Positions 27,263 through 36,766 of a DNA stretch of 52,463 bases are shown here, piece by piece. The DNA is taken from the NCBI RefSeq assembly GCF_022690685.1, contig NZ_JALCYY010000040.1:1-52463 (forward strand). The letters run 5' to 3'. A program made the position numbers and the translations under genes. Within the stretch, counting starts at the first letter, position 1; the number at the start of each line of letters is the position of its first letter. Origin of the DNA: Anaeromyxobacter terrae. GTDB lineage: Bacteria > Myxococcota > Myxococcia > Myxococcales > Anaeromyxobacteraceae. The notes under the pieces were generated by a model. It did no database searches and was not told the origin of the DNA. It worked only from the letters and a program-made list of their open reading frames with translations.

Positions 27263-27631
27263 TTAGTCCCACCCTCTCCGCGTCGCCTTCCGCTCCCCGC
27301 GCCGCTTCTTCTCGGTGATGCGCCGCTCCTTCGAGCCGCGCGTGGGCTTCGTCGGCCGGCGCGGCTTGGGCCGGTGAGCGAGCGCGCCGAGCCGGTCGCG
27401 CAGGCGCGCGAGCGCGGCCTCGCGGTTCTGGAGCTGGCTGCGCCGCTCCGTCGCGGTGACCGTCACGCCGGTGGGACCGTGGACGAGCCGCACGGCGCTC
27501 TCCGTCTTGTTGCGGTGCTGACCGCCGGGACCGCTGCCCACGAAGAACGACTCCTCGCACTCGGCGAGCAGCGCCGCGTCGGGGAGCGCGAGGGCGCGGC
27601 GGGCGCTGGCGCGGAGCTCGTCGGAAATCAC
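27263..27631 (-). CDS. release-factor-like GGQ peptidyl-tRNA hydrolase (ArfB-like)
   Basis: 122 residues from GTG 27631, fixed by GGAGG 6 bases upstream. The GGQ loop [13 protein letters not shown] (GGQ at 36-38) hydrolyses peptidyl-tRNA. The basic C-terminal tail ([19 protein letters not shown]) is the type that ArfB/YaeJ inserts in the empty mRNA channel of stalled ribosomes. No codon-recognition domain, so it is not RF1/RF2. Likely role: rescue of non-stop ribosomes. The N-terminal 30 residues differ from E. coli ArfB, so a related short RF-like subgroup is possible. Confidence 0.85.
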
Positions 27632-27798
27632 GCGGTCCTCCGGTTCGGTCGGGCGGAGAGTACGCGCGGTCGGCCCGGAGCGGGAGCCCTCGCGCCGCCG
27701 TCTGCGGCGAGGTGCGCGCGCGCGCCGAGCGCCTCCGTTCGCCGCACCTGTCGGCGAAGGAGCGAGCGAGCGCACGATTGACCGGACGCGGGTCCTCC

Positions 27799-29406
27799 GT
27801 GATCATCCGCCGCACCCTCATGGCGCTCGCCCACCCGCGGAAGGTCGCAATCACCCTCGTCGCCCTCGTCGCGGCGACCGCCGGCCTGATGCTCTACAAG
27901 GTCCGCGCGCTCGGGTACTCGCTCGCGGACGTCCTGCCGGTGCGCCAGTACGAGGTCTCCTACGCGCTGCGGCTCGACGGGCACGGCGGCGACGTGCGCG
28001 TGCGGACCTTCCTCCCGGCGAGCGACGCGCGGCAGACGATCTCCGACGAGCGGACCGAGTCCACGGGGTTCCACCTGTCGCAGGTCCTCGACGGCCCGAA
28101 CCGGGTCGCGACCTGGGTCGGCGCGCAGGTGCCGGACGGGGCCGCGATCCGGCACACCGTCAAGATCGTGCCGCGGCGGGTCTCGTACACGATCCCCGCC
28201 GATCTCCCCGTCCCCACCTCCTACCCGGCCTCGACGGCGGCGGCGCTCCGCCCGGAGAAGGAGATCCAGGTGGACGCGCCGGAGATCGCGGACACCCTCG
28301 CGCGCATCGGCGCGGACCGCGGGCCGGTCATGGAGCGGCTGCGGCGGATCCACGACTTCGCCCACGGGCTCACGTCCCGGCCGTTCAAGGGGACCACCGA
28401 CGCGCTCACCGCGCTGCGCCTGGGCGAGGCGAGCTGCAACGGCAAGAGCCGCCTCTTCGTCGCGCTCGCGCGCGCCACGGGCATCCCGGCGCGCCTGGTC
28501 GGCGGGCTCATCCTGGAGCCCGGCTCGAAGCGCACCTCGCACCAGTGGGTCGAGGCGTACGTCTCCGGCCACTGGATCCCGTTCTGCCCGACGAACGATC
28601 ACTTCGCCGAGCTGCCGGAGCGCTACCTCACGCTCTACTACGGCGACGAGGTCCTGTTCCGGCACACCTCGGACGTGAACTTCGACTACCGGTTCGAGAT
28701 CCGCACGCAGCTCGTCCCGTCGCCGCGCGCGAAGGCGTCCTTCACCTTCCTCGACGTGTGGGGCCTGTTCGATCGCCTGAAGCTGCCGTTCAGCCTGCTC
28801 CGGACGATCCTCATGCTCCCCATCGGCGCGCTCCTCACCGTGCTCTTCCGGAACGTCGTCGGCATGCCGACCTACGGCACGTTCCTGCCTGCGCTGCTCG
28901 CCGCCGCGGCGGGCGAGACCGGCGCCGGCTTCGGCGCGCTCGCGGTGCTCATCGTCGTCGCCGCGGTCGCGACCGCGCGCTGGGCCGTGGCGCGGCTCGA
29001 GCTCCTCCACTCGCCCACCCTCGCGATCCTCCTCTGCGCAGTGGTCGTCACGCTCGTCGGCACCTCGATGCTCGCGGATCGGCTCGGCATCGCCGGGCTC
29101 ACGCACGTCACGATGTTCCCGATCGCGGTGCTCGCCATCTGCGCGGAGCGCTTCTACCTGTCGCTCACCGAGCACGGGCCGCGCGCGGCGGGGAAGGAGC
29201 TCGTGGGCACGCTCGTCGTGATGCTCGCCTGCTACGTGGTGATGAACTCGCTCGCGCTGCAGGTGCTCGTCATCGGGTTCCCGGAGGTGCTCCTGCTCGC
29301 CGTCGCGGCGAACGTCTACCTCGGGCGCTGGGTGGGGATGCGGCTCAGCGAGTACCGGAGGTTCCGCGGGCTGCTCGGGGCCGGAGCGCCGGGGGGCGCC
29401 CCGTGA
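27799..29406 (+). CDS. transglutaminase-like domain fused to 7 membrane helices
   Basis: 535 residues from GTG 27799; ATG 27820 is an alternative. One N-terminal membrane anchor (about 16-34), a periplasmic transglutaminase-like domain (about 165-285), and a C-terminal block of about seven hydrophobic segments (about 330-510). This matches the known 'inactive transglutaminase fused to 7 TM helices' family, which occurs beside ATP-grasp ligases. The domain keeps Cys213 (ASCNGKS) and His248 (TSHQW), but the usual Asp of W-x-x-x-D-P-T is Cys263 (HWIPFCPT). It is the first gene of a five-gene operon, and its stop overlaps the next start (GTGA). Proposed in the literature to work with the ligase in peptide modification; not shown here. 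Confidence 0.85.
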
Positions 29407-30356
29407 GCCTCCTCGCCGCCGCGCGCGATCGCATCCGTGCGCTCCTCGCCCGCCGCGAGGCGGTGTACGGCATCAACCGCCGCAACCTCGTCCTCGTCTA
29501 CCCGAACAACGACCGGCGCGACTACCCGCTCGCCGACGACAAGCTCCTCGCGAAGGAGCGCTTCGCCGCGGCGGGGGTGCCGGTGCCGGAGACGCTCGCG
29601 GTGTGCGACGGGCTCTTCGCGGTGCCCGGCGTCGTGGAGGCGCTGCGCGGGAGGTCGCGCTTCGTCGTGAAGCCGGCGAACGGCTCGGGCGGCGGCGGGA
29701 TCCTCGTCGCCGGCGAGTGGCTCCCCGACGCCGGCGGCTGGCGCCGCGCGGGCGGCGCGCTCCTCACCCCGCGCGAGCTTGCGCGCCACCTCGCCGACGT
29801 GGTCTTCGGGGTCCACTCGAACCAGCTCGAGGACCGGGCCTTCGTCGAGGGCCGCGTCGAGCCGCACGCGCTGTTCGCCGCGCTGTGGGCGGACGGGCTC
29901 TGCGACGTGCGCGTCATCACGCTGCGCGGCGAGCCGGTGCTCTCGATGATCCGCGTGCCCACCGCCGAGTCGGGCGGGCGCGCGAACCTGCACCAGGGGG
30001 GCCTCGGCATCGCGGTGGATCTCGCTACCGGGCACACCTCCCGCGCGCTCCACCACGGCCGCGCCGTGGAGCGTCACCCGGAGTCCGGGGCGCCCTTGCT
30101 CGGGCTCGCCCTGCCCCGCTGGCCGGAGATCCTCGAGGTCGCGCGCCGGGCCGCGCGAGCGGTGCCGCTCGGCTACCTCGGCGTGGACGTGGTGGTCGAC
30201 CGCGAGCGCGGCCCGCTCGTCCTCGAGATCAACGCCCGCCCCGGGCTCGAGATCCAGAACGTCACCGGCCGGGCGCTCGGGGACGCGCTCGCGGCGCTCG
30301 CGGACGCGCCGAGCGGGCTCCCCGAGCCGCGCGCCGCAGGCGGGAGCGCCGCATGA
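29403..30356 (+). CDS. ATP-grasp alpha-L-glutamate ligase-like protein
   Basis: 317 residues from GTG 29403. ATP-grasp fold related to RimK: ATP-binding Lys90 with glycine loop (FVVKPANGSGGGGI, 87-100), DVRVITLRGEPVLSMIRVP, and the magnesium-binding LEINARPGLEIQN with Glu275 and Asn277. The family forms amide bonds between an acyl-phosphate-activated acid (often glutamate) and an amine. No signal or membrane segment, so cytoplasmic. It is coupled to the 7TM transglutaminase gene upstream and to the TPR gene downstream (ATGA overlap). Substrate unknown. Confidence 0.88.
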   Translation: MSLLAAARDRIRALLARREAVYGINRRNLVLVYPNNDRRDYPLADDKLLAKERFAAAGVPVPETLAVCDGLFAVPGVVEALRGRSRFVVKPANGSGGGGILVAGEWLPDAGGWRRAGGALLTPRELARHLADVVFGVHSNQLEDRAFVEGRVEPHALFAALWADGLCDVRVITLRGEPVLSMIRVPTAESGGRANLHQGGLGIAVDLATGHTSRALHHGRAVERHPESGAPLLGLALPRWPEILEVARRAARAVPLGYLGVDVVVDRERGPLVLEINARPGLEIQNVTGRALGDALAALADAPSGLPEPRAAGGSAA

Positions 30357-32287
30357 ACCGCCTCGTCCTCGATCGTCTCTGGCCCATGCTGGTGTTCCTC
30401 GGCGCGCTGCTCGCCGGCGCGCTCGCGCTCGAGAGCTTCGCGGCGCGGCGCGGCAACGACGCGCTCGTCATCTCCATCGCGGGGGACGAGGAGGCGCTGG
30501 GCGACGACGGCGACGCGCCCGCCCCCGCGAGCGCCGGGGACGACGCGCCCGTCTCGGACGCGCACGCGCGCGCGCGGCGCGCCGCGCGCCGCGGAGAGCA
30601 GGCGGAGGCGCTGAAGCTCTACGAGGCCGCGCTCGCGGCGAGCCCGGGCGCCGCCGCGGTCGAGGAGGAGCTCGGCGCGGTGCTCCTCGCGGCGGGCGAC
30701 CCGGCGAAGGCGCTCCCGCACCTGGTGCGCGCGGAGCAGCTCGGGCCCGGGCCGCAGCGCGCGCTCCACGTCGGGCTCGCCCGCGCGCGCCTCGACGACC
30801 TGGACGGCGCCGAGCGCGATCTCCGTCGCTCCCTCGCGCAGCGGCCCACGGGCTACGCGCGCGTCGCGCTCGGGAACCTGCTGCGACGGCGCGGCGATCC
30901 CGCCGGCGCCATCGCGATCCTCGAGCCCGCCGCGGCGTCCGGCTCGAACGAGGACCGCGCTCGCGCCCTCGTCGCGCTCGGCGCGGCGGAGCTCGCGGCC
31001 GGACGGCGCGAGAGCGCGGAGCGGCGCTTCTCGAAGGCCGTCGAGTACGCGCCCGCGCGCGCCGAGATCCTGCTCGGCACCGCGCGCGCCTGGCTCGGCA
31101 CCAGCTCCGCCCAGGACGCTCACCGCGCCGTGCAGGTGCTCCTCCGCGCCGCCGAGGTGGCGCCGGACCTCGCCGCGGTGTACGCGCTGCTCGGGCGCGC
31201 GCACGAGCGGGCCGACGAGACGCCCGCGGCGCTCGAGGCGTACGACCGCGCGCTCCGGCTCGACCCCTCCCAGCGGTACGCGCGCCGGCGCCTGCTGCGC
31301 CTCGCGCTCCAGGCCCGTGACTTCGCCCGCGCGCGCCACGAGGCGGACCGGCTCGTCGCCGACGCGCCGCAGGAGCCGGAGCACCAGTTCCTCGTCGCGC
31401 TCGTCGCCGATCGCGACGGCCGCGACGACGACGCGCGCCGGGCCTACCGCAAGGCGATCGAGGTCGCGAAGGGCGACTACCCCGAGGCCTACCTGAACCT
31501 GGGGGTGCTCGAGAAGCGCGCGGGCGACGCGGCCGCCGCGCGCGCCGCCTACGGCGAGGCCCTGCGCCTGCGCCCCGCGTACGGCGCCGCCTGGGTGAAC
31601 CTCGGCAAGCTGGAGGAGGCGGGCGGCGATCGCGCCGCGGCCGAGGCCGCGTACCGCAAGGCGATCGCCCTCGACGAGAAGTACGCGGCGGCGTGGCTCG
31701 CGCTCGGGCAGCTCCAGTCGGAGGCGGGGAGCTACGACGACGCGCGGGCCTCGCTCGGGCGCGCGCTCGCGGCGCGCCCGGGGTACGACGCCGCGCAGCT
31801 CTCCCTCGGCGTCGCCGCGGTGCGCGCCGGAAGGCCCGACGAGGCGATCGCCGCGTATCAGGCGGTGCTCGCCCGCTCGCCGCGGAGCGTCTCGGCCTGG
31901 TACGACCTCGCGCTCGTGCTCCAGGAGGTCTCCCGGCGCGACGAGGCGCGCGACGCCCTCGCCCACGCGCTCGCGATCGACCCCGGCCACGCGCCCTCCC
32001 AGCGCGCGCTCGCCGAGCTCCACCTCGACGCCGGCCGGACGGCGGACGCGCGGAAGGCCTTCGAGGAGCTCCTCGACCTCGTCCCCGGCGACGTCGAGGC
32101 GCGCGCGGCGCTCGCGGAGATCGCCGCCCGCGAAGGGAACCGCACCGCCTGCGAGACGGCCGCGCGGCGGCTCCTCGCCGAGGCCCCGAAGGACCCCGCC
32201 GTCCAGGCCCTGCCGTCGCGATGCGCGGGCGCCGCCTCGCACATCCCCACCCCCAGGCCCGTCCCCACCACCGCCGTCGCACCCTAG
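30353..32287 (+). CDS. membrane-anchored TPR protein
   Basis: 644 residues. One N-terminal membrane anchor (about 9-28, LWPMLVFLGALLAGALALES), an acidic linker, then about fifteen TPR units from residue 70 to the end, with typical pairs such as AYLNLGVLEKRAGDAAAARAA and AWVNLGKLEEAGGDRAAAEAA. The ending is Pro-rich. TPR arrays are protein-binding scaffolds; this one most likely faces the periplasm. It starts in the ligase stop codon and is followed after 21 bases by a repeat lipoprotein gene, so it could link the inner-membrane and outer-membrane parts of the same system. Confidence 0.85.
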   Translation: MNRLVLDRLWPMLVFLGALLAGALALESFAARRGNDALVISIAGDEEALGDDGDAPAPASAGDDAPVSDAHARARRAARRGEQAEALKLYEAALAASPGAAAVEEELGAVLLAAGDPAKALPHLVRAEQLGPGPQRALHVGLARARLDDLDGAERDLRRSLAQRPTGYARVALGNLLRRRGDPAGAIAILEPAAASGSNEDRARALVALGAAELAAGRRESAERRFSKAVEYAPARAEILLGTARAWLGTSSAQDAHRAVQVLLRAAEVAPDLAAVYALLGRAHERADETPAALEAYDRALRLDPSQRYARRRLLRLALQARDFARARHEADRLVADAPQEPEHQFLVALVADRDGRDDDARRAYRKAIEVAKGDYPEAYLNLGVLEKRAGDAAAARAAYGEALRLRPAYGAAWVNLGKLEEAGGDRAAAEAAYRKAIALDEKYAAAWLALGQLQSEAGSYDDARASLGRALAARPGYDAAQLSLGVAAVRAGRPDEAIAAYQAVLARSPRSVSAWYDLALVLQEVSRRDEARDALAHALAIDPGHAPSQRALAELHLDAGRTADARKAFEELLDLVPGDVEARAALAEIAAREGNRTACETAARRLLAEAPKDPAVQALPSRCAGAASHIPTPRPVPTTAVAP

Positions 32288-32308
32288 CCTCGCCCGAAGG
32301 AGCTTCAC

Positions 32309-33526
32309 GTGCCCAAGCCTCACCTCGAGATCTCGTCCGGCCTCCTCGGCTGCGCCGTCCTCGCGGCCCTCGCGCTCGCGTGCAGCGGCGGGCAGAAGAG
32401 CCCGAGCGCGCCGGGCGGGGTCCCGATCGATCCCAACCGCCCCGGCGACTCGCTCTTCGCCGAGGGGCTCGCGCTCTACGACGCCGCCAACGCCGCCGCG
32501 AGCGAGGCGCGCACGCTGGCCCCGACCGACGCCGCCGCGAGCGCCGCGAAGGCAGCCCTCGCGCTCCAGGACTACGCGGACGCGCGCGCCAGGTTCGACG
32601 CCCTCCCGGTCCAGTTCCCGACCTCGATCCGGCTCGACAACGCCGCGTACCTCGCCGGTCGCTGCAGCTACGAGCGCGGCACGCTCGGCGGTGATCCCGC
32701 CGAGTTCCAGGACGCGGTGGCGCGCCTCGACGCGATGCTGGCGGCCTTCCCCGCCTCTCCCTTCATCGACAACGCCGCCTACTTCGACGGCCGCGCCCGC
32801 TTCCAGCTCGGGGACTACGCCACGGCGCGCCCGCAGTTCGAGCGGTCGCTCGCGGCGGGCCCGACCGGCACCTACGCGGACAACGCGCAGTACTACCTCG
32901 GCCGCTGCGACTTCGAGCTAGGGCTCGCGCTCGCGGGCGCGGGGGACGGGCTCGGCGCGATCGCGAAGCTCGACCTCGCCGAGGCGGAGCTGCAGGTCGT
33001 TCCGACCACGAGCACGTACTACGACAACGCGCAGTACTACCTCGGGCGGAGCTACCTCGCGGAGCCGGTGAACGCCACGGCCACCTTCACCGGGCTCTCC
33101 ACCGCCGAGGCGGCGGCGCGCAAGGCCAACCTCGAGGCAGCGGTCGCGGCGTTCGAGCGGACGCTGGCGGTGCCTGCGTCGAGCTACGCAGGCTCCGCCC
33201 AGTACTGGCTCGGCCGCGCCCGCTACGCGCACGCGTTCTACTACGCCAGCGCCGGGCTCGACCCCGCGGACCTCGCCGCGGCCGCCGGCGCGTTCCGCGC
33301 CGTCCCGGCGACGAACACCTACGCGGACAACGCGCTCCACTACCTGGCGCGCACCTACGTGAACTCGACCTGGCAGTTCTGCACCACCCCGCGCGCGTCG
33401 GATCCCGCCCCGGCCTCCGCCTGCGCGGCCTACGCGAAGCTCTCCGCCGACTTCCCCTCGAGCACCTACGTCTCGTCGACGGCGACCTACCTCGCCGCCG
33501 CGACCCCGCCGTGCCTCTGCCCGTGA
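32309..33526 (+). CDS. TPR-like repeat lipoprotein
   Basis: 405 residues from GTG 32309 after AAGGAGC. Lipoprotein signal with lipobox LALAC (Cys25). The mature part is built of helical hairpin repeats of about 40-60 residues carrying a shared signature: DNAAYLAGRCSYERG, DNAAYFDGRARFQLG, DNAQYYLGRCDFELG, DNAQYYLGRSYL and DNALHYLARTYV. This is the BamD/YbgF/AlgK-like style of tetratricopeptide lipoprotein. It should sit on the inner face of the outer membrane. The next gene, 14 bases on, is an outer-membrane barrel, a pairing known from polymer secretion systems (AlgK with AlgE). Confidence 0.8.
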   Translation: MPKPHLEISSGLLGCAVLAALALACSGGQKSPSAPGGVPIDPNRPGDSLFAEGLALYDAANAAASEARTLAPTDAAASAAKAALALQDYADARARFDALPVQFPTSIRLDNAAYLAGRCSYERGTLGGDPAEFQDAVARLDAMLAAFPASPFIDNAAYFDGRARFQLGDYATARPQFERSLAAGPTGTYADNAQYYLGRCDFELGLALAGAGDGLGAIAKLDLAEAELQVVPTTSTYYDNAQYYLGRSYLAEPVNATATFTGLSTAEAAARKANLEAAVAAFERTLAVPASSYAGSAQYWLGRARYAHAFYYASAGLDPADLAAAAGAFRAVPATNTYADNALHYLARTYVNSTWQFCTTPRASDPAPASACAAYAKLSADFPSSTYVSSTATYLAAATPPCLCP

Positions 33527-33540
33527 CAAGGAACCCCGCG

Positions 33541-34734
33541 ATGATCCGCGCCCTCGCCGCCCTCTCCGCCCTCGCCCTCCTCGTCGCCGCGCCCCCCGCC
33601 GCGGCCGCCGACGCCGCGCCGCAGTGGACCCTCGACGCGCGCGCCGGCGTGTACGCGGGCGCCTTCGACGGCTACGGCGTCCGGCGCGACTCGGGCGCGC
33701 TCGCCCTCGCCGAGGGGGCCCTCACGCCCGAGCTCCGGAGCGGCGCCTTCCAGCTCGCCCTGCCCGTCCGCTTCGCGCACCGGCAGACCTTCGGCGCGAC
33801 GCTGTCCGAGACCACCGGCTCGGTGGGCGTCGAGCCCGAGTACCGGGTCCTGAAGCGGCTCAGGCTCGGGGCGGAGGCGTCGATCGGGGGCGCGTATCGG
33901 CCCGGCTGGGAGGACCTGTACCAGCGCGACGCGCTCGGCAACATGCCCGGCACCGACCGCTACGGGTACCTCACCTGGCGCGCCGGGGTGAACCTCTACG
34001 CGACCCCCGTGGCGCACCAGCACCTCCGGCTCAAGTACCGCTACGTCTCGTACTCCTACGCCCAGGACCCCAACTTCGATCCCGCCGTGCCGATGCACCT
34101 CACCCCGCGCGACAACGGCCAGCATCAGCTCGAGGCCTCGTGGCGGATCCTGGGCGAGCGCTACGCGACGGCGTTCCGGGTGGACTACGTCCACCGTCAG
34201 GACTTCACGCTCCTCGCGCGAGACGCGCGCACCGGCGCCACGAGCGGGAACCCGGAGCAGGAGCTCGACACGGTCGAGCCGTCGGTGGAGGTCGAGCTCT
34301 CCAGGCTCGGCGGCGCGGTCGACGTGTCGCTCCGCTACGGGTACGAGGTCCAGCGCGACGCGTTCCAGGGCTACTACTCCTACCAGGGGCAGCACCCGCG
34401 CCTCCTCGTGAAGTCCCCGCTCACCGAGCGGCTCGAGGCCCAGCTCCGCGCCGAGGCGTGGCTGCGGGGGTACGGGCCGGACTCGAAGGCGAACACGTCG
34501 GACGGGGCGCGGCTCTACGACCGCCGGCTCGCGCTCGGCGGCGAGCTGCGCTACGCGCTCGCGGGCGGCCTCGCGCTGCGCGCCGAGGCCGAGTGGGTGA
34601 CGCGCGACACGAACTACCCGGACTACGTCCCCGGCGTCTATCCGGCCGGCCGCTTCTACGACATCCGCTGGAGCTACGACAACGTGCGCGCCATCGCCGG
34701 CCTCGAGTGGCGCATGCCGCGCGCGAGCCGCTGA
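33541..34734 (+). CDS. outer-membrane beta-barrel protein
   Basis: 397 residues from ATG 33541, preferred over the upstream in-frame ATG at 33511 because a Sec signal peptide starts here (RALAALSALALLVAAPPAAAA). The mature chain is alternating beta sequence dense in Tyr, Arg and Gly (LRLKYRYVSYSYAQDPNF, VDVSLRYGYEVQRDAFQ) and ends AIAGLEWRMPRASR. Perhaps 14-18 strands. It is the last gene of the five-gene operon and is followed by a hairpin. Likely a porin-like channel or secretion outlet for the operon; family not recognised. Confidence 0.75.
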   Translation: MIRALAALSALALLVAAPPAAAADAAPQWTLDARAGVYAGAFDGYGVRRDSGALALAEGALTPELRSGAFQLALPVRFAHRQTFGATLSETTGSVGVEPEYRVLKRLRLGAEASIGGAYRPGWEDLYQRDALGNMPGTDRYGYLTWRAGVNLYATPVAHQHLRLKYRYVSYSYAQDPNFDPAVPMHLTPRDNGQHQLEASWRILGERYATAFRVDYVHRQDFTLLARDARTGATSGNPEQELDTVEPSVEVELSRLGGAVDVSLRYGYEVQRDAFQGYYSYQGQHPRLLVKSPLTERLEAQLRAEAWLRGYGPDSKANTSDGARLYDRRLALGGELRYALAGGLALRAEAEWVTRDTNYPDYVPGVYPAGRFYDIRWSYDNVRAIAGLEWRMPRASR

Positions 34735-34830: not shown

Positions 34831-35586
34831 GTGTCCCGCCGCGGCGTCCGCGTCACCGATCCCTCCCGCTGGGTCTTCAACCGGCTCGCGGAGCCCTACC
34901 GGCAGCGGCCGGGCTACCCGCCGCCGCTCGTCTCGCGGCTCCTCGCGCTCGCGGGCGGTTCGGGGGCGCGCGTCGCGGACCTCGGCGCCGGGACCGGGCA
35001 GCTCGCGCTGCCGCTCGCGGCGCTCGGCGCGGAGGTGTTCGCGGTCGAGCCGGCGCGCGCCATGCTCGACGTCCTCACCGCCGAGGGCGCCCCGCGCGTC
35101 ACCGCGGTGCACGCCGCCGCCGAGGAGACCGGCCTCCCGGACGGCGCGTTCGAGCTCGTCGTCCTCGCGGACGCGCTGCAGTGGGTGGATCCCGAGCGCG
35201 GCGGGCGGGAGGCGGCTCGGCTCCTCGCGCCCACGGGCGTCCTCGCGGTCGTGACCCCGCGCCTCGCGGACACCCCGTTCCTCGCCGCGCTCTCGGCGCG
35301 CATCGCCGCCGCGAACTTCAAGGCCCGCCCCGCGCCGCCGCCCGTCGGCCTCCTCTTCTCCGTCGCGGGGCTGGGCGCGCCGGTGTCCGAGCGGTTCGAG
35401 GCCGAGGAGGAGCTCACCCCGTCGCGGCTCGACGCCGTGCTGCGGTCGCTCTCCTACGTCGGTCCGGCGCTCGGCGAGACCGCCCTCGCGGCGCTCCTCG
35501 CCGACGGGCGCGCCCTCGCGGACGCCCACGGCGGGGCGGTGTGGCGGCGCGAGCTCGCGCTCGCGTGGGCGAGGCGAGGCGGTTAG
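34831..35586 (+). CDS. class I SAM-dependent methyltransferase
   Basis: 251 residues from GTG 34831. The SAM-binding motif ADLGAGTGQLALPLA is at about 49-63, the acidic residue after beta-2 is in FAVEPARAML, and VVLADALQWVDPERG is motif IV of the UbiE/Methyltransf_11 type. Substrate cannot be inferred. A -10-like TAGGCT (34819-34824) lies 6 bases before the GTG with no SD, suggesting a leaderless mRNA. It converges on the DUF482 gene. Confidence 0.85.
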   Translation: MSRRGVRVTDPSRWVFNRLAEPYRQRPGYPPPLVSRLLALAGGSGARVADLGAGTGQLALPLAALGAEVFAVEPARAMLDVLTAEGAPRVTAVHAAAEETGLPDGAFELVVLADALQWVDPERGGREAARLLAPTGVLAVVTPRLADTPFLAALSARIAAANFKARPAPPPVGLLFSVAGLGAPVSERFEAEEELTPSRLDAVLRSLSYVGPALGETALAALLADGRALADAHGGAVWRRELALAWARRGG

Positions 35587-35599
35587 CCCTCCCTCACCC

Positions 35600-36766
35600 T
35601 CACCCCCCGAGCCGCGGGTGCTCCTCGCGCCAGCGCCGCACCGCGAGGAGCCGCTCCTGCCGCTCGTCCGCGAGGTGGCGTCGCACGGCGCCGTCGAGGC
35701 GCGCGTCGAGGTGGAGGTGGGCGCTCCAGGTCTCCGCCGGCTCGAAGCCGCGCGCGACCTTGTGCTCCCCGCCGGCGCCGCCCTCGAACACGCGGGTGCC
35801 CCGCCGGATGCACTCGTCGATGGAGTGGTACAGCGCGACGTTGAAGTGCAGGAACGGGTGGGACTCGACGCAGCCCCAGTAGCGCCCGTAGAGCCGGTCG
35901 GGGCCGGCGAGATTGAACGCCATGCCGACGAGCTTCCCCTCGCGCCGGGCCTCGACCACCTCCACCGCCTCGGGGAGCCACGCGAGGGCGCGCTCGTAGA
36001 AGCCGAGGTTCACGAAGCGCATCCCCCACACCATGCGGTCCGTCGAGGCGCGGTGGAGCCGGTAGCAGGCGCGGGCCCAGCCCTCCGGGTCGCGCGAGAG
36101 CTCGTCGCCGCGGACCGTGCGGATCGCGATCCCCTGGCGCGCCGGCGCCGCCCGCTCGCGGCGGATGGCGTTCCGGCGCTTGGAGGGGAAGCGCGCGAGG
36201 AACTCCTCGGGCGAGGCGTAGCCCTCGTTCCGCCAATGGTACTGGAAGTCCACGCGCAGGACGAGCCCGACCTCCTCGAGCTCGCGGGCCTCCTCCGCGT
36301 CGGCGAAGAGCACGTGGAGGCCGTGCGCGCCCTCGTCCTCGGCGACCCGCCGCGCGCCGGCGAGGAGCGCCGCGACGAGCGCGCGCCGGTCCTCGCCGGG
36401 GGCGGCCAGGATTCGCCTCCCGGTCGCCGGAGTGAACGGGACCGCGAGGACGAGCTTGGGGTAGTACGGGATCCCGGCGCGCTCCGCCGCCGCCGCCCAC
36501 TCCCAGTCGCGCGAGAAGTCTCCGTCGGAGCCGCCCTTCAGGTAGGCAGGCGCGGCGGCGACGAGCGTCCCGCCGCGGCGGAGGGCGAGGTGCCGCGGGC
36601 GCCAGCCGGTGCGCGGGGACGCCGAGCCGCTCTCCTCCATCGCGCGCAGGAACGCGTGGCGCACGAACGGGCTCGCGCGGGCCGGTTCGTGGGCGAGGAG
36701 CGCGTCCCACTCCGCGGCGGGGAGCTCCGAGATCGAGGCGTGTGCGGTGAGGGAGAGGCCGGTCAC
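35600..36766 (-). CDS. DUF482/GNAT-like protein
   Basis: 388 residues from GTG 36766, usual length for the DUF482 family (often called peptidoglycan-biosynthesis or GNAT-family proteins). Signatures: WDALLAHEPARASPFVRHAFL at the start, PYYPKLVLAVPFTPATGRRIL, FPSKRRNAIRRERAAP, FYERALAWLPEAVEVVEARR and HPFLHFNVALYHSIDECIRR, ending GGAGGEHKVARGF. Two tandem GNAT folds are expected, as in FemX-type aminoacyl transferases. Activity not established. Single gene between convergent and divergent neighbours. Confidence 0.85.
   Translation of the reverse strand: MTGLSLTAHASISELPAAEWDALLAHEPARASPFVRHAFLRAMEESGSASPRTGWRPRHLALRRGGTLVAAAPAYLKGGSDGDFSRDWEWAAAAERAGIPYYPKLVLAVPFTPATGRRILAAPGEDRRALVAALLAGARRVAEDEGAHGLHVLFADAEEARELEEVGLVLRVDFQYHWRNEGYASPEEFLARFPSKRRNAIRRERAAPARQGIAIRTVRGDELSRDPEGWARACYRLHRASTDRMVWGMRFVNLGFYERALAWLPEAVEVVEARREGKLVGMAFNLAGPDRLYGRYWGCVESHPFLHFNVALYHSIDECIRRGTRVFEGGAGGEHKVARGFEPAETWSAHLHLDARLDGAVRRHLADERQERLLAVRRWREEHPRLGG

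Follow-up and report, generated by a model that had tools for sequence, protein, structure and literature searches.

RloB-RloC operons with a tetratricopeptide repeat protein and an outer-membrane barrel form a distinct branch and may encode a trans-envelope assembly line

A five-gene operon in Anaeromyxobacter terrae

We analyzed a stretch of 52,463 nucleotides of Anaeromyxobacter terrae (contig NZ_JALCYY010000040.1; the whole stretch is referred to as the window) and focused on five forward-strand genes at positions 27799 to 34734, which encode relatives of RloB and RloC, a periplasmic tetratricopeptide repeat (TPR) protein, a repeat lipoprotein and an outer-membrane barrel. RloB and RloC were named in 2025 in Pseudomonas aeruginosa, where their genes follow that of the secreted retropepsin RloA; the product of the pair was left open in that work, which mentions neither a TPR protein nor a barrel (PMC12239564). 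A first-pass annotation of the window had already described five genes here, and we found all five frames confirmed, with coordinates, order, overlaps and gaps exactly as described. Genes 1 to 3 are joined by consecutive overlaps of 4 bases, while gaps of 21 and 14 bases precede genes 4 and 5, respectively.

The first gene (27799 to 29406), whose start may be the ATG at 27820, where its relatives begin, encodes an RloB-type protein that matches 7TM_transglut (PF14402; 1e-40, 140 bits with a cut-off of 25) and Transglut_core (PF01841; 5e-17, 62 bits, above the cut-off) and is 94% identical to RloB of A. soli, in line with the grouping of the genome with Anaeromyxobacter. Gene 2 (29403 to 30356) encodes an RloC-type ATP-grasp ligase, which matches ATPgrasp_ST (PF14397; 1e-57, 196 bits) and, also above the cut-off, PF08443. 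Judged by their scores, the two proteins are relatives of the NCBIfam RloB family (NF052267; 132 bits vs 900 required) and of the ligase-like family TIGR02291 (264 bits vs 314.2 required), not members. Gene 3 (30353 to 32287) encodes a periplasmic TPR protein of 644 amino acids (TPR families to 2e-43), anchored in the inner membrane by a single N-terminal transmembrane (TM) segment at residues 4-31. It is followed by a TPR/YfiO-like repeat lipoprotein (32309 to 33526; PF13525, 9e-11) with the lipobox ALAC and a Ser at +2, and by an outer-membrane beta-barrel with a signal peptide (33541 to 34734). For the barrel, Pfam returned a sub-threshold match only; the AlphaFold2 model has 16 strands at a predicted local distance difference test score (pLDDT) of 88. 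Domain scores, TM segment, lipobox and barrel model thus bear out the kinds of protein that the first-pass annotation had assigned.

Searches with Pfam and NCBIfam domains revealed no glycosyltransferase among the five genes. The hairpin formerly proposed to end the operon 3' of gene 5 does not exceed chance expectation (z -0.35) and lacks a T-run, and an Rfam search of the window gave nothing informative.

Conservation of the gene set

In order to follow the gene set in other bacteria, we scanned the genomes of 84,980 species with an alignment of RloB proteins from such loci (TPR-type RloB). This yielded 164 relatives, and 80 loci were kept from Myxococcota, Pseudomonadota, Nitrospirota, Thermodesulfobacteriota, Campylobacterota, Krumholzibacteriota, Bacteroidota, Calditrichota, Spirochaetota and one unplaced record. 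The RloB-RloC-TPR set recurs in about ten phyla, with a TPR gene after rloC in 68 of the 69 loci that leave room for it; in the sole exception (L157), the barrel follows rloC directly instead. A barrel is encoded downstream in 46 of 57 loci. In the spirochaetes and at the loci L092 and L094, its place is taken by another barrel cluster, and counting these, 52 of 57 loci have a barrel within reach. The spirochaete protein, encoded just upstream of rloB, combines a lipoprotein-like TPR front (hhalign probability 91.6) with a barrel back (97.3). Profile comparison links the barrels of the other phyla to those of Myxococcota with a probability of 99.1.

The order RloB-RloC-TPR-lipoprotein-barrel is found again in Anaeromyxobacter and related Myxococcota, and the 4-base overlaps are mostly retained. 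The co-occurrence of all five genes, which the first-pass annotation had suggested checking, holds for RloB, RloC, the TPR protein and the barrel, whereas the lipoprotein is an optional part of the set: there are two in L071 and L066 and none between TPR protein and barrel in L036 and L083, and in L104, L111 and L131 a lipoprotein gene lies upstream of rloB. A full-length barrel was present in 13 of 195 Myxococcota genomes, all of them among the 16 with TPR-type RloB; the 179 others have none (Fisher p 9e-18, not adjusted for kinship), and two of the three TPR-type genomes lacking it are incomplete assemblies. The operon is not universal even in its own genus, as no PF14402 was found in G006, a complete Anaeromyxobacter genome.

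Among the 80 loci, 18 encode RloB and RloC as a single fused protein; almost all of these are from Gammaproteobacteria (e.g. Kangiella and Aliikangiella; Pfam check on L154), and the RloC domains of the fusion proteins form one supported clade in the RloC tree. This suggests that RloC works at RloB and that the C-terminus of RloB is cytoplasmic. Overall, conservation of the later genes together with rloB and rloC extends over several phyla, which supports the view, already taken in the first-pass annotation, of one envelope-spanning system; the RloB-RloC and TPR-barrel fusions strengthen it.

Several observations concern the surroundings of these loci. A cluster of two-component regulators is represented close upstream of rloB in L098, L123, L141, L144 and L148; in Vibrio cholerae, the rlo genes are controlled by VxrB (PMC12239564). 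The locus L073:11669-16069 (G163) has neither the repeat lipoprotein nor the barrel; there, the gene after that of the TPR protein encodes an alpha-2-macroglobulin-like lipoprotein. The genes flanking the operon in the window, judged by reading, seem unrelated to it: a GGQ-motif peptidyl-tRNA hydrolase (ArfB-like; 27263-27775, minus strand), an S-adenosylmethionine methyltransferase (34831-35586, plus strand) and an acyltransferase (35600-36766, minus strand).

A Cys-His pair retained in the TPR-type branch

RloB consists of one TM helix, a periplasmic transglutaminase/cysteine-protease-like domain with Cys213 and His248, and a seven-transmembrane (7TM) domain. In the AlphaFold2 model (pLDDT 91), the periplasmic part fits the fold of 3isr over 251 residues (Z 24.3), with the Cys and His of both proteins aligned. 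The structure search additionally showed resemblance to transglutaminases and pseudomurein endoisopeptidases, as well as a match to LapG (Z 9.3). The first-pass annotation had correctly termed the gene 7TM transglutaminase-like and had overlooked the retained Cys and His. As for the 7TM part, residues 355-511 (28861-29331) align with the NqrD/RnfE membrane subunits at Z ~8, which may be chance for helical bundles, and the model includes short half-helices, typical of transport folds.

In the PF14402 surveys, which were not selected for the Cys, Cys213 and His248 are kept in 21 of 21 TPR-type RloB proteins and in 0 of 37 others. With the scan loci included, the count becomes 89 of 89 vs 0 of 37. 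Since the pattern used in the genome scan (CNGKSRLF) holds the Cys, its conservation in those 80 loci is partly selected, and the claim therefore rests on the PF14402 surveys. Cys, His and Asn266 are fixed across phyla in TPR-type RloB, while the same sites drift freely in the other branch.

The RloC tree separates TPR-type loci from all others by a single change, and the RloA-type loci form one clade (support 97). Of 30 classical gammaproteobacterial loci, 28 encode RloA (PF05618) next to RloB, whereas no TPR-type locus has it nearby. The retropepsin that the first-pass annotation had noted as missing from the window is in fact absent from the entire genome, in which no PF05618 was found. The same applies to 16 of 25 genomes with TPR-type loci; the other nine have the gene at another place in the genome, where it may encode RimB. 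One gammaproteobacterial genome (G252) carries both types (L227 and L259), so the two are not simple replacements of each other. TPR-type loci thus form a branch of their own rather than a version of the known rlo operon that has lost a gene.

A different arrangement was observed at three classical Myxococcota loci (L039:6578-15582, L040 and L064), which share a conserved cluster around an inactive-type RloB without RloA. Upstream lies the gene for a long S41/PDZ peptidase, and a second, Cys-less transglutaminase protein and a C25 (gingipain-like) peptidase are encoded downstream. We considered the second transglutaminase, which follows rloC, as a substitute active enzyme and rejected it because its Cys is absent too. 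The cluster may represent a third way of pairing RloB and RloC with a protease.

Ligase and barrel

In the alignment with RimK (5zct), R170, D262, E275 and N277 of RloC are equivalent to R189, D248, E260 and N262, and all four lie in invariant columns. D262, E275 and N277 correspond to the metal ligands of RimK, and R170 to a substrate-side residue. In P. aeruginosa RimK, R189 and N262 contact the poly-glutamate chain (PMC10092738). With the N-terminal domain of RimK and its further chain contacts missing from RloC, glutamate as the substrate of RloC is a guess.

The barrel model matches both porins and two-partner-secretion barrels (FhaC/CdiB), tied at Z near 18-20. CdiB is the top match (Z 20.2), and chitoporin and OprO/OprP match the model equally well. 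Because porins and two-partner-secretion barrels tie, the fold does not tell the cargo. AlgE, PgaA and BcsC were not among the structure matches listed, which excludes nothing.

Proposed route and alternative explanations

We propose, at a probability of about one half, that these loci encode a trans-envelope assembly line built on RloB and RloC, in which a short chain of amino acids is made inside the cell and passed through both membranes. In the cytoplasm, RloC would join amino acids by ATP-driven amide bonds, probably into a glutamate or glutamate-like chain that is free or carried on a small carrier; the amino-acid polymer or peptide tag suggested in the first-pass annotation would be such a product. 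RloC would be docked in a complex with RloB, whose 7TM domain would move the product outward across the inner membrane and whose periplasmic Cys-His domain would cut it to length or transfer it to an acceptor. Transport over the periplasm to the barrel would then fall to the anchored TPR protein, together with the lipoprotein where present, and the barrel would release or display the product at the surface. For the P. aeruginosa type, with a dead RloB domain and no outer-membrane outlet, RloA would instead trim or remove the product in the periplasm. P. aeruginosa without all three RloA proteases fails in low salt, deletion of rloB or rloC restores growth, and RloA cleaves poly-glutamate in vitro (PMC12239564). 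This published epistasis agrees with a product of RloC and RloB that needs periplasmic handling. More broadly, and only tentatively, the loci could represent a widespread Gram-negative secretion system for a non-ribosomal peptide made by an ATP-grasp enzyme, finished by an inner-membrane protease or transferase and released through a TPR-barrel outlet, as an amino-acid counterpart of synthase-dependent exopolysaccharide secretion.

Several observations weigh against this proposal. RloC is without the N-terminal domain of RimK, which bears most of the glutamate-chain contacts, so its amino acid may differ from glutamate, and we know of no RloC with a known product. At the third triad site of RloB (position 263; residues 263-266 at 28585-28596), most TPR-type members have Asp, Anaeromyxobacter including the window has Cys, and about one third of TPR-type RloB proteins have Gly or Cys; since this residue varies, full catalysis by RloB is unproven. 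The link between the Cys-His pair and the TPR protein falls on a single split of the tree and counts as one evolutionary event. By the profile, no barrel was detected in the four Kangiella loci; L114 is likewise without one among the 57 loci. Finally, a rough estimate from strand alternation showed that the barrel lumen is not consistently basic, with a mixed charge that varies between homologues. A polyanion cargo is therefore not indicated, and an electropositive, polyanion-selective barrel, which we had considered, is unsupported. Of the AlgK/AlgE-like parts proposed in the first-pass annotation, the layout of TPR protein and barrel holds, whereas a specific kinship of the barrel is not supported, given that many barrels tie and the lumen is not basic.

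The strongest competitor, to which we assign about half the weight of the assembly line, is a modification of the envelope: RloC would extend a cytoplasmic precursor of the envelope (peptidoglycan or a lipid-linked sugar) with amino acids, which the active domain of RloB would transfer to the cell wall or to a protein in the periplasm, with TPR protein and barrel serving only as a scaffold to the outer membrane. The cell-shape and beta-lactam phenotypes of P. aeruginosa rlo mutants (PMC12239564), the resemblance of the RloB domain to transglutaminases and pseudomurein endoisopeptidases and the family name of RloC, 'sugar-transfer associated', would all fit, yet a co-inherited, dedicated 16-strand barrel is hard to explain unless something crosses the outer membrane.

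Delivery of a protein to the surface, as by Slam or two-partner secretion, appears unlikely. Here the Cys-His domain would process or cross-link a secreted protein that is tagged by RloC and moved by the TPR-barrel pair. CdiB as the top barrel match, although tied with porins, the Slam-like layout of the spirochaete fusion and the LapG match of the RloB domain point in this direction; however, no conserved substrate gene lies beside the core, and the only widespread clusters are those of RloB, RloC, TPR/lipoprotein and barrel.

Still less probable is uptake, in which the barrel would import an oligopeptide and RloB would carry it inward for use by RloC. The model is porin-like, but an ATP-consuming ligase fits synthesis, as does the P. 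aeruginosa epistasis, in which the product of RloB and RloC is harmful without the periplasmic protease (PMC12239564). A chance juxtaposition of the known pair with an unrelated TPR-lipoprotein-barrel unit could be read from the wider gaps after gene 3 and from barrels and lipoproteins that sometimes lie elsewhere, but is rejected by the conservation in about ten phyla, the phyletic co-occurrence and the 4-base overlap of the TPR gene with rloC in most Myxococcota loci.

In P. aeruginosa, RloB and RloC influence osmotic tolerance and cell shape as well as biofilm and survival of antibiotics. The TPR-type branch supplies a possible outlet for the product of the pair, with its own TPR protein and outer-membrane barrel in place of a degrading protease in genomes of about ten phyla. 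Such an outlet predicts that the product leaves the cell and could be sought in culture supernatants. Our results further correct two views of RloB, namely that its transglutaminase domain is inactive throughout and that it hardly occurs outside Proteobacteria. While the RloB-RloC pair was already known, its branch with TPR protein, barrel and intact Cys-His pair is apparently undescribed as a system: we did not find it in the searchable literature, which leaves out the bulk of subscription papers, among them the 2009 amidoligase survey (Iyer et al.), in which part of the neighbourhood may be mentioned.

Comparison with known systems

The rloABC operon of P. aeruginosa has homologous adjacent genes for RloB (transglutaminase-like and 7TM) and RloC (ATP-grasp), with the same predicted places in the cell (PMC12239564). 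It differs in possessing RloA and an RloB domain without catalytic residues, whereas the window operon is without RloA, keeps Cys and His, adds TPR protein, lipoprotein and barrel, and has an RloC on the other side of the single tree split. The rimABK system, with the poly-alpha-glutamate ligase RimK and the retropepsin RimB, likewise has an ATP-grasp ligase, whose metal ligands and R189 and N262 have equivalents in RloC. RloC, in contrast, is tied to a membrane protein, lacks the N-terminal chain-binding domain and stands here without a retropepsin partner. For the whole periplasmic part of RloB, the counterpart in fold is 3isr, a putative cysteine protease of Cytophaga hutchinsonii with Cys and His at aligned positions, which is soluble, uncharacterised and without a 7TM domain.

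In overall layout, the operon resembles synthase-dependent exopolysaccharide secretion (alginate AlgK/AlgE, PgaA, BcsC), with synthesis in the cytoplasm or at the inner membrane, a periplasmic TPR protein and an outer-membrane barrel. PgaA and BcsC are TPR-barrel fusions, and such fusions also occur here, in the spirochaetes. The difference is that the window operon has an ATP-grasp ligase and no glycosyltransferase, and a barrel of mixed lumen charge with no specific match.

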